Part shown: positions 5,631-11,258 of the stretch, one piece after another
Layout: every line of letters begins with the position of its first letter
How positions within the stretch are numbered: position 1 is the stretch's first letter
IMG/VR virus record: IMGVR_UViG_3300030104_006759
Span: 2,627 to 62,302 of that record
Reading direction: 5' to 3' (one strand)
Origin: a virus
DNA: 59,676 bases
The notes under the pieces: model-generated
Seen by the model: the letters and a program-made list of their open reading frames with translations, nothing else
The model's database searches: none
Told to the model about the DNA's origin: nothing
Position numbers and translations under genes: made by a program

Positions 5631-5724
5631 GAGCACCACAATCAAAGAACTGTTGGTTGGGTGTATAATAATATTTGCTTTCACCATCATTTGTTTCCTG
5701 GTCATGCTTGCAGGAATGCTTTAA
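5590..5724 (+). CDS. 44-aa single-span membrane protein with His-rich N-terminus
   Basis: Begins MTVHSDHHHEPNGE, followed by one transmembrane helix (about residues 22-44, GCIIIFAFTIICFLVMLAG). Overlaps the cysteine-rich ORF by 41 bases in another frame and ends 14 bases before a terminator hairpin. Unknown function; last of the psbD-linked small membrane genes. Confidence 0.55.
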   Translation: MTVHSDHHHEPNGESTTIKELLVGCIIIFAFTIICFLVMLAGML

Positions 5725-5736
5725 ATCTATTATACT
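5708..5736 (+). promoter_or_regulatory. promoter nested against terminator (module copy 2)
   Basis: TTGCAG (5708-5713), 17-base spacer, TATACT (5731-5736). The -10 box ends 2 bases before the terminator hairpin. The -35 box is 54 bases and the -10 box 31 bases before the ATG at 5762, identical to the purC and 6534 copies. Confidence 0.6.
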
Positions 5737-5738
5737 AT

Positions 5739-5760
5739 GGGGGTATCGAACCCCCTTTTT
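5739..5760 (+). terminator. intrinsic terminator of the psbD transcript
   Basis: GGGGGT (5739-5744) pairs with ACCCCC (5750-5755) around a 5-base loop, followed by five T. The next start codon is 1 base beyond the T-run. Confidence 0.85.
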
Positions 5761-5761
5761 C

Positions 5762-5923
5762 ATGTCCAATTCTCTTGATAGGATAGCAGAGTCCCTGGAA
5801 AGGATAGCAAACGTTTTAGAAAACGAAACTATTACCATTAATATGATTCATGGGCATATTGAAAATATTGATCATGCTCACATTGATGATGGTGAGATTG
5901 ATGTTCACAGCAAGAGTTACTGA
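5762..5923 (+). CDS. hypothetical protein, 53 aa
   Basis: The ATG at 5762 is chosen because the longer open frame would run through the upstream terminator. Product MSNSLDRIAESLERIANVLE has an N-terminal amphipathic helix of heptad type, then a histidine/aspartate-rich C-terminal half. No Shine-Dalgarno; like purC it starts directly after a terminator T-run and has a nested promoter. Confidence 0.65.
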   Translation: MSNSLDRIAESLERIANVLENETITINMIHGHIENIDHAHIDDGEIDVHSKSY

Positions 5924-5925
5924 TT

Positions 5926-6222
5926 ATGGCACCTAAGAAAAAAGAGTATGTTGATACCGTCTTGCCTGTCTCTGGTGATGGTGTTGACTATGAAGTGATC
6001 AGTCGTCAGATCACTGAGAATGCACATCGTGAGTGGCCTGACATTAAGTCTGACCCTTATGATGAGATCGTAGAGCAGAGAAAGAAAACCTGCTACGGTA
6101 ATCCTGAAGAAGTATTTGAGACATACGAAACAGTAAGGTATCGTAAGTATCATCCTGTTCCTGACCCTGTTGAAGTTAAGGTTGAAAAGAAGGTGACTGA
6201 GGAACAGAAGGTTAATGCATAA
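5926..6222 (+). CDS. hypothetical protein, 98 aa
   Basis: Soluble, lysine- and glutamate-rich protein starting 2 bases after the previous stop. The C-terminus is a charged EVKVEKKVTEEQKVNA tail. No domain recognised. Confidence 0.7.
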   Translation: MAPKKKEYVDTVLPVSGDGVDYEVISRQITENAHREWPDIKSDPYDEIVEQRKKTCYGNPEEVFETYETVRYRKYHPVPDPVEVKVEKKVTEEQKVNA

Positions 6223-6247: not shown

Positions 6248-6496
6248 ATGTCCTGTAATCTTCGATTAAAAATTTTAGAAGCTCTTCGTGCTGATGCAGA
6301 AGGCAACATTGCTAAAGCAAAGGCAAATATCGAAGTTTATCTTCATCAACCTGTGGGTATTGGTGAACATCCTGATGTTCTTGGTGCAATTCAAGAACAA
6401 CTAGATATCATCGCACATGATGAAGAGAGGATAGAGGTTCTAGAAGAACACTTTGGACTTGGCGAAGATGACGTTGATGTTGATTGGACTGCATAA
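6248..6496 (+). CDS. hypothetical helical protein, 82 aa
   Basis: Mostly helical: two heptad-like segments (residues 4-30 and 45-70), ending in an acidic LGEDDVDVDWTA tail. Resembles small conserved cyanophage proteins of unknown function. Its last codons contain the -35 box of the promoter for the next gene. Confidence 0.7.
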   Translation: MSCNLRLKILEALRADAEGNIAKAKANIEVYLHQPVGIGEHPDVLGAIQEQLDIIAHDEERIEVLEEHFGLGEDDVDVDWTA

Positions 6497-6508
6497 CTGT
6501 GATATACT
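6480..6508 (+). promoter_or_regulatory. promoter nested against terminator (module copy 3)
   Basis: TTGATT (6480-6485), 17-base spacer, TATACT (6503-6508). The terminator hairpin begins 1 base after the -10 box; predicted start near 6515, at the end of the 5' arm. Distances to the ATG at 6534 are 54 and 31 bases, as in copies 1 and 2. Confidence 0.65.
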
Positions 6509-6509
6509 A

Positions 6510-6533
6510 AGAGGGTTAACGCCCTCTTTTTTT
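6510..6533 (+). terminator. intrinsic terminator
   Basis: AGAGGG (6510-6515) pairs with CCCTCT (6522-6527) around a 6-base loop; seven T (6527-6533) follow and run into the next ATG. Confidence 0.85.
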
Positions 6534-6833
6534 ATGATTGGTAACTTAGAACCAGACGAACGTGTTATGGAGAACTCCGTCGTAGATCAAATCGTTAGAG
6601 AAGTAAACAAACTAGGATGGGAGGTTGGAGATAACATCGTAGTAGAAATTGGTGGAACTCAAGTCTCTGGTATTGATGTAGGTGAGGTTTACAATAAGAA
6701 ATGGCAATCACCTAAAGGCACACGTAAGTACAATAAAGATGCATTTATTGTAATTAAAAACCTCAATAGATCTCCTTTTGAACCATCAAAACCAATGGAT
6801 GAGTTTAGTCCAAAGCACAAATACTCTAAATAA
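6534..6833 (+). CDS. hypothetical protein, 99 aa
   Basis: Start set at the ATG directly after the terminator T-run; the open frame extends upstream only through the terminator. Helical N-terminus followed by a beta-rich part (DNIVVEIGGTQVSGIDVGEVY) and a basic C-terminus. No domain recognised. Expressed from its own nested promoter. Confidence 0.65.
   Translation: MIGNLEPDERVMENSVVDQIVREVNKLGWEVGDNIVVEIGGTQVSGIDVGEVYNKKWQSPKGTRKYNKDAFIVIKNLNRSPFEPSKPMDEFSPKHKYSK
6826..6832 (+). promoter_or_regulatory. possible late promoter CTAAATA before glutaredoxin
   Basis: CTAAATA overlaps the stop codon of the previous gene, 20 bases before the glutaredoxin ATG. The motif also occurs by chance wherever a stop TAA follows CT, so the call is weak. 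Confidence 0.3.
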
Positions 6834-10226: not shown

Positions 10227-10232
10227 AGACCT
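10216..10232 (+). promoter_or_regulatory. palindromic operator over the -10 box
   Basis: AGGTCTAT-A-ATAGACCT is a perfect 8-bp inverted repeat with a single central base, covering the TATAAT box. A dimeric repressor bound here would block the promoter; the protein is unknown. Confidence 0.55.
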
Positions 10233-10285
10233 GTCGTTCATCCCTTCGGGGACGCAAGTAAGTCGCGGAACGGAGCGTTCATCCT
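10233..10285 (+). promoter_or_regulatory. structured leader with alternative pairings
   Basis: TCCC-TTCG-GGGA (10241-10252) is a UUCG tetraloop hairpin. CGTTCATCC occurs twice (10235-10243, 10276-10284), and the GAACG at 10268-10272 between them can pair with either copy (10235-10239 or 10276-10280). GGAG at 10272-10275 is the likely ribosome site for the ATG at 10286, so the choice of pairing could gate translation. Similar leader sequence seems familiar from other cyanophages, but no RNA family name is certain. Confidence 0.5.
10249..10274 (+). repeat. direct repeat GGGACGCAA-N9-GGAACGGA, copy 1
   Basis: GGGACGCAA, nine variable bases, then GGAACGGA. The same 26-base pattern recurs at 10431-10456, before the next micro-gene. 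Confidence 0.6.
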
Positions 10286-10663: not shown

Positions 10664-10692
10664 AGAGAGGGTTACAAACCCTCTCTTTTTTT
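10664..10692 (+). terminator. intrinsic terminator
   Basis: AGAGAGGGTT (10664-10673) pairs perfectly with AACCCTCTCT (10677-10686) and is followed by seven T. Ends the 10198 transcript. The following 95 bases up to the 10788 promoter contain nothing recognisable. Confidence 0.9.
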
Positions 10693-11030: not shown

Positions 11031-11055
11031 GAGGGGTTGCGGCCCCTCTTTTTTT
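11031..11055 (+). terminator. intrinsic terminator
   Basis: GAGGGG (11031-11036) pairs with CCCCTC (11043-11048) around TTGCGG, then seven T. As in the nested modules, ATG follows the T-run, but that frame closes after 16 codons. Confidence 0.85.
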
Positions 11056-11087
11056 ATGCTAATATGTCTACACCATAACTCACACTC

Positions 11088-11258
11088 ATGGATAAAGAGA
11101 GGTTAAAACTGATTGTCAGGAATCTTGAGTCTTTGATAGACTGTCTTAAGTCAGAGGTATATTCTGATGTCGATGCTTATAAAGCAGAGAACTATGATGA
11201 TCCTCCGCAAAACTATATAATTGATTACGACGAAGTATTTGAAGATGACGATGACTGA
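11088..11258 (+). CDS. hypothetical acidic protein upstream of thyX, 56 aa
   Basis: MDKERLKLIVRNLESLIDCL helical start, then a tyrosine/aspartate-rich end (DEVFEDDDD). Overlaps thyX by 8 bases, so it is probably coupled to it. Function unknown. Confidence 0.65.
   Translation: MDKERLKLIVRNLESLIDCLKSEVYSDVDAYKAENYDDPPQNYIIDYDEVFEDDDD

Follow-up and report, generated by a model that had tools for sequence, protein, structure and literature searches.

Modules of fixed geometry in a cyanophage window

At positions 6480-6536 of the window, by which we mean the whole stretch of 59,676 nucleotides analysed here, promoter boxes, a terminator hairpin and a start codon follow one another so closely that the locus raises the question of whether a promoter and a terminator can be built from the same DNA, and what such an element would do between two genes. 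The window is taken from a 62,302-base IMG/VR virus record and carries psbA, psbD, talC, purC, a glutaredoxin gene and many small open reading frames (ORFs). Nearly all of its best matches are Synechococcus myophages, with S-SM2 at the top, and from these matches together with the gene set we conclude that the source is a T4-like cyanophage. Two structured RNA elements were also observed. A PhotoRC-II RNA (RF01717, 52.5 bits) lies at 233-330, immediately 5' of psbA. A short aptamer resembling the glutamine riboswitch (RF01739) is found at 10232-10279, with 25.7 bits against an Rfam gathering score of 35; it sits just 3' of a TTGACT-17-TATAAT promoter, the -10 box of which falls within the palindrome GGTCTATAATAGACC.

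Read directly on the plus strand, the element at 6480-6536 (module 3) has the order TTGATT-17-TATACT-AA-GAGGG-TTAACG-CCCTC-T7-ATG, and the anatomy given in the original prediction, from the TTGATT box to the ATG at 6534, is exactly recovered. The -35 box TTGATT (6480-6485) lies within the 3'-terminal part of the upstream ORF (6248-6496), whose stop codon (6494-6496) falls in the promoter spacer, and the extended -10 box, (TGa)TATACT at 6503-6508, ends 2 nt 5' of the stem. The core of the terminator hairpin, GAGGG-TTAACG-CCCTC, occupies 6511-6526, with pairing that extends to 6509-6528; the extended stem has eight pairs, and the RNA has a predicted free energy of -11.1 kcal/mol (shuffle z of -3.2). 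The seven T that follow (6527-6533) form the terminator U-tract and would also be the end of the new 5' leader. The gene 3' of the module (6534-6833) encodes 99 amino acids, belongs to phrog_475, of unknown function, and has at least 597 relatives in IMG/VR. The opposite strand carries no T-run past the stem, which rules out a two-way terminator.

Two sister modules on the same strand have the same layout. Module 1 (1445-1501) reads TTGACA-17-TAAAAT, followed by a hairpin at 1475-1491, T7 and the purC ATG at 1499, and its -35 box overlaps the stop codon of psbA. Module 2 (5708-5764) reads TTGCAG-17-TATACT, followed by a hairpin at 5739-5755, T5 and an ATG at 5762 (phrog_35332). The -35 box, -10 box and ATG start at 1445/1468/1499, 5708/5731/5762 and 6480/6503/6534 in modules 1, 2 and 3, respectively, so that the distance to the ATG is 54 nt from the -35 box and 31 nt from the -10 box throughout, and in each of the three the promoter contains the stop codon of the upstream gene. 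The predicted identity of geometry therefore stands, and because the spacers agree at only 2-7 of 17 positions a recent duplication of one module within the window is ruled out.

The modules have the G+C-rich hairpin and directly adjoining T-run of intrinsic terminators. Their hexamers are 17 nt apart in all four modules of the window, including the one at 11031 described below, within the 16-18 nt spacing of sigma70-type promoters. Some of the boxes are weak, since TTGATT matches at four of six positions, TTGCAG at three and, at the 11031 site, where both hexamers are weak, the -35 box TTGCGG at three and the -10 box TAATAT at four. Given the window's own frequency of -10 boxes, the probability that at least three of its five plus-strand terminators would have a -10 box matching at five or more of six positions within 0-5 nt is about 6e-4. 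At 10665-10685 on the plus strand lies a strong terminator of the ordinary kind, in which no nested promoter could be recognised.

Recurrence of class A modules in cyanophages

We define class A modules as those in which a -10 box lies 0-5 nt 5' of a terminator stem. Cyanophage loci gathered by similarity to two proteins, and not by the pattern, comprise 1.66 Mb with 191 terminators. A -10 box ending exactly 2 nt before the stem is present at 17.8% of these terminators, compared with 0.65% per position farther upstream. A stricter independent set, with four complete or near-complete genomes added, was drawn from 2.4 Mb of related cyanophage DNA and contains 177 terminators. The original prediction had proposed a scan of cyanophage genomes against shuffled controls, and the pattern exceeds them: 34 of the 177 terminators are class A, whereas dinucleotide shuffles (100 runs) give a mean of 8.4 and a maximum of 16. 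In a search for a -10 box followed by T5-ATG that did not require a hairpin, a hairpin nonetheless abuts the T-tract in 65 of 130 arrangements (shuffles, 1.9). The geometry is also conserved: the loop begins 8 nt past the -10 box in 34/64 cases, and no class A arm has more than 8 bp, against up to 11 in other terminators.

Each complete or near-complete cyanophage genome examined has only one to five class A modules, so they serve a minority of genes. In Syn9, psbD ends at 168,316, the -10 box occupies 168,317-168,322, the hairpin begins at 168,325, with its arm/loop boundary near 168,329-168,330, and gp219 starts at 168,349; in S-SM2, a class A module lies ahead of the gene at 168,134. Class A was absent from the 36 terminators of marine picocyanobacterial host loci, a small control, and was not enriched in other cyanobacteria (5/122 terminators, 4.3 expected) or in RB49 and T4 (3/55 terminators, 2.5 expected). 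On these counts, nesting is not a general property of T4-type phages or of host terminators.

Could A/T-rich 5' flanks of terminators in AT-rich, compact genomes, like those of two-way terminators, simply imitate a -10 box? Such flanks do yield some look-alikes, as the class A cases in the shuffles attest, and a hairpin is still found in 10 of 70 arrangements with permuted hexamers. However, the -10 box peaks sharply at a single offset and is accompanied by a -35 box and an extended -10 at fixed spacing, and the other strand of module 3 has no T-tract after the stem. Moreover, across IMG/VR 92 stretches carry the exact class A pattern, but none carries a version of it in which two letters of the -10 box are exchanged; the permuted-pattern scans refute coincidence as a general explanation, and we consider it highly improbable. 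The recurrent compact design that had been proposed is thus found well above both shuffled and permuted controls.

A second class with the -35 box as hairpin loop

The terminator at 11031 had been set aside in the original prediction as a contrast without a good promoter, which proved to be wrong. The loop of its hairpin (11031-11048, plus strand) is a weak -35 box, TTGCGG (11037-11042), and the hairpin is followed by T7 and an extended -10 box, TGc-TAATAT (-10 hexamer at 11060-11065); the 17 nt between loop and -10 are made of the 3' arm and the U-tract. The ATG at 11056 provides the TG of the extended -10 and is not a start codon, and the promoter-like layout (11031-11065) faces the gene at 11088-11258 (phrog_878). 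Most relatives of this gene have hairpins of very different stems, with the loop TTGACA, TTGACT or similar, followed by a T-tract and then a -10 box at 17 nt, while some have class A instead. The 11031 site is therefore the orthologous site of a second nested class, termed class B.

Class B accounts for 28 of the 177 independent cyanophage terminators (shuffles, 2.3; maximum, 7) and for none of 158 cyanobacterial terminators (0/36 in marine host loci and 0/122 in other cyanobacteria). One exact class B pattern is present in at least 120 IMG/VR stretches, with three when the loop is permuted and none when the -10 box is permuted. The outer stem pairs, which were not fixed by the search, are Watson-Crick in 71-90% of cases, compared with 31-40% for shuffled partners, and each of these positions shows three to four base-pair types, a clear covariation; the stem thus varies yet stays paired. 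The loop remains a -35 box in the set gathered by protein similarity. Examples are L275:12921, L253:16197, L230:9423 and L217:11128, as well as the module ahead of hli03 in S-SM2 (hairpin at 167,144-167,163, gene at 167,206).

Several further occurrences of class B were observed. It is also present in Enterococcus faecalis phages such as IMEEF1 (L441) and SAP6, at loci L441, L424, L484, L486 and L535, and other matches outside cyanophages are L435 (a 364-kb contig), L494 and L525. Double modules occur before purC, with one -10 box between a class B and a class A hairpin (L245:9939, L051:17860), and in L233, also 5' of purC, an intact class B part is accompanied by a class A hairpin that has apparently decayed. 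A conserved stretch around AAACCGTCCA lies directly 5' of many class B hairpins that precede different genes (L010:2522, L205:4183, L213:4558).

Translation start and timing

The modules had been predicted to lack a Shine-Dalgarno sequence, and comparison of the same gene with and without a module agrees with this. Where purC follows a module, 0 of 33 sequences have a strong anti-Shine-Dalgarno match, compared with 70% of 27 where it does not; for the gene at 6534, the values are 9% of 11 with a module and 44% of 39 without. From this same-gene comparison we conclude that the module replaces the usual ribosome site. The Shine-Dalgarno sequence is absent simply because the T-tract occupies the place where it would be; initiation might be helped by ribosomal protein S1 or the U-tract, as the original prediction suggested. 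The module-led genes had also been labelled early, a label for which we find no support; in cultured cyanomyoviruses, genes of nucleic-acid metabolism, the class to which purC belongs, are reported as middle genes (PMC7238727).

Proposed working of the nested element

From the anatomy, recurrence and conserved geometry of the modules, the stem covariation of class B and the loss of the Shine-Dalgarno sequence, we hypothesize that the nested promoter-terminator isolates one gene from the next, a reading that we consider probable. Bacterial promoters start RNA about 6-8 nt past the -10 box. In class A, a sigma70-type promoter would stand so near the hairpin that the interval from the -10 box to the start is taken up by the 5' arm; with an RNA start about 7 nt after the -10 box, the 5' arm is exactly the stretch that would be left untranscribed from the nested promoter. 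In module 3 the predicted start would thus fall near 6515-6518 on the plus strand, at the arm/loop boundary. A polymerase arriving from upstream would transcribe both arms, and its RNA would fold and transcription stop at the U-tract. A polymerase from the nested promoter would start at the arm/loop boundary and make an RNA with the 3' arm and U-tract only, and because the 5' arm is missing this RNA could not form the hairpin or terminate itself. The new transcript would instead read on into the ATG directly after the U-tract, with a leader of about 19 nt that lacks a Shine-Dalgarno sequence. In class B, the loop would act as the -35 box, the 17-bp spacer would consist of the 3' arm together with the U-tract, and the -10 box would come next. 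By predicted folding, the full RNAs have -11 to -14 kcal/mol and those from the predicted start -0.8 to -1.2. From this arrangement we infer where the RNA starts and that both terminator and promoter are active during infection.

Relation to known systems

The idea of a composite promoter-terminator is known from T4-type phages, in the form of PeSL (promoter-early stem-loop) cassettes (PMC4503421, which cites Arbiol 2010 and Comeau 2014). Like these cassettes, the cyanophage modules unite a terminator stem-loop with a sigma70-like promoter within a short intergenic element; they share the idea but not the layout seen in RB49 and T4. A promoter lies within 80 nt past the stem at 17/39 terminators of RB49 and 5/19 of T4, with the -10 box mostly 40-59 nt after the stem. 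There the promoter is a separate unit downstream of the hairpin, whereas in cyanophages the two share DNA, with the -10 box before the stem (class A) or the -35 box in the loop (class B), and neither class has the succession of hairpin, U-tract and complete, separate promoter. With intrinsic (Rho-independent) terminators the modules have in common the G+C-rich stem, short loop and U-tract; unlike plain intrinsic terminators, their 5' arm or loop doubles as promoter DNA. They also resemble the host-like sigma70 promoters of T4-like cyanophages (TTGACA-17-TATAAT), which, in the work of Doron and colleagues of 2016, reportedly drive middle genes in Syn9. Nesting of such promoters with terminators is not known to have been described.

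Other roles for the modules must be weighed against the isolation of neighbouring genes. Located where the new mRNA is predicted to begin, the hairpin might act on that transcript, as a 5' stabiliser or an attenuator; this we regard as very improbable, as the predicted start is the arm/loop boundary and RNAs from that start are unfolded. The module might also be mainly a recombination cassette of the PeSL kind, a short shared sequence for gene swapping, which would be compatible with gene isolation. In T4-like phages, the shuffling of genes has been reported to proceed through PeSLs (PMC4503421). Among relatives of the 6534 gene the module is retained, but different genes stand before it: the window's own ORF type in L002-L005, an ORF of the 5590 type in L011, psbD in L063, talC in L006 and an ORF of the 10796 type in L021. 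Yet neighbour diversity at module junctions (0.37-0.47) is not above that at other junctions (about 0.5), so that no enrichment of modules at gene-swap junctions was found, and the same publication doubts PeSL shuffling for its S-PM2 region. In the close relative L003, the indel between modules 2 and 3, a missing block at about 5933-6220, ends at no module, which also rules out module-mediated loss of this block. A mainly recombinational role is in our judgement unlikely.

Doubtful, but worth stating, is a hand-over in which the terminated RNA polymerase stays on the DNA and restarts at the promoter beneath it. In vitro, polymerase is retained on the DNA after termination, diffuses and starts again at promoters close by, with an efficiency that is expected to depend on the distance between terminator and promoter (PMC6978380), and in the modules this distance is essentially zero. 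Against this, a 2024 follow-up states that reinitiation still awaits demonstration in vivo (PMC11347151), and compactness alone could account for the nesting.

Implications

Nested modules are a case of regulatory DNA compression, in which 57 bp hold, in overlapping form, the last codons and stop of one gene, a promoter, a terminator and the start codon of the next gene. They also carry a warning for annotation: an ATG that follows the T-tract marks the real start of the gene in class A but belongs to the promoter in class B. The form with the -35 box in the loop is a natural terminator-promoter and a possible insulator part. If hand-over takes place, which we suggest only tentatively, the modules would form a relay in which adjacent genes are coupled but their RNAs stay separate, the terminating polymerase being delivered onto the next promoter, in T4-like cyanophages and, independently, in some Enterococcus phages. 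Both forms are natural substrates for the question of whether polymerase restarts at an adjacent promoter after termination.
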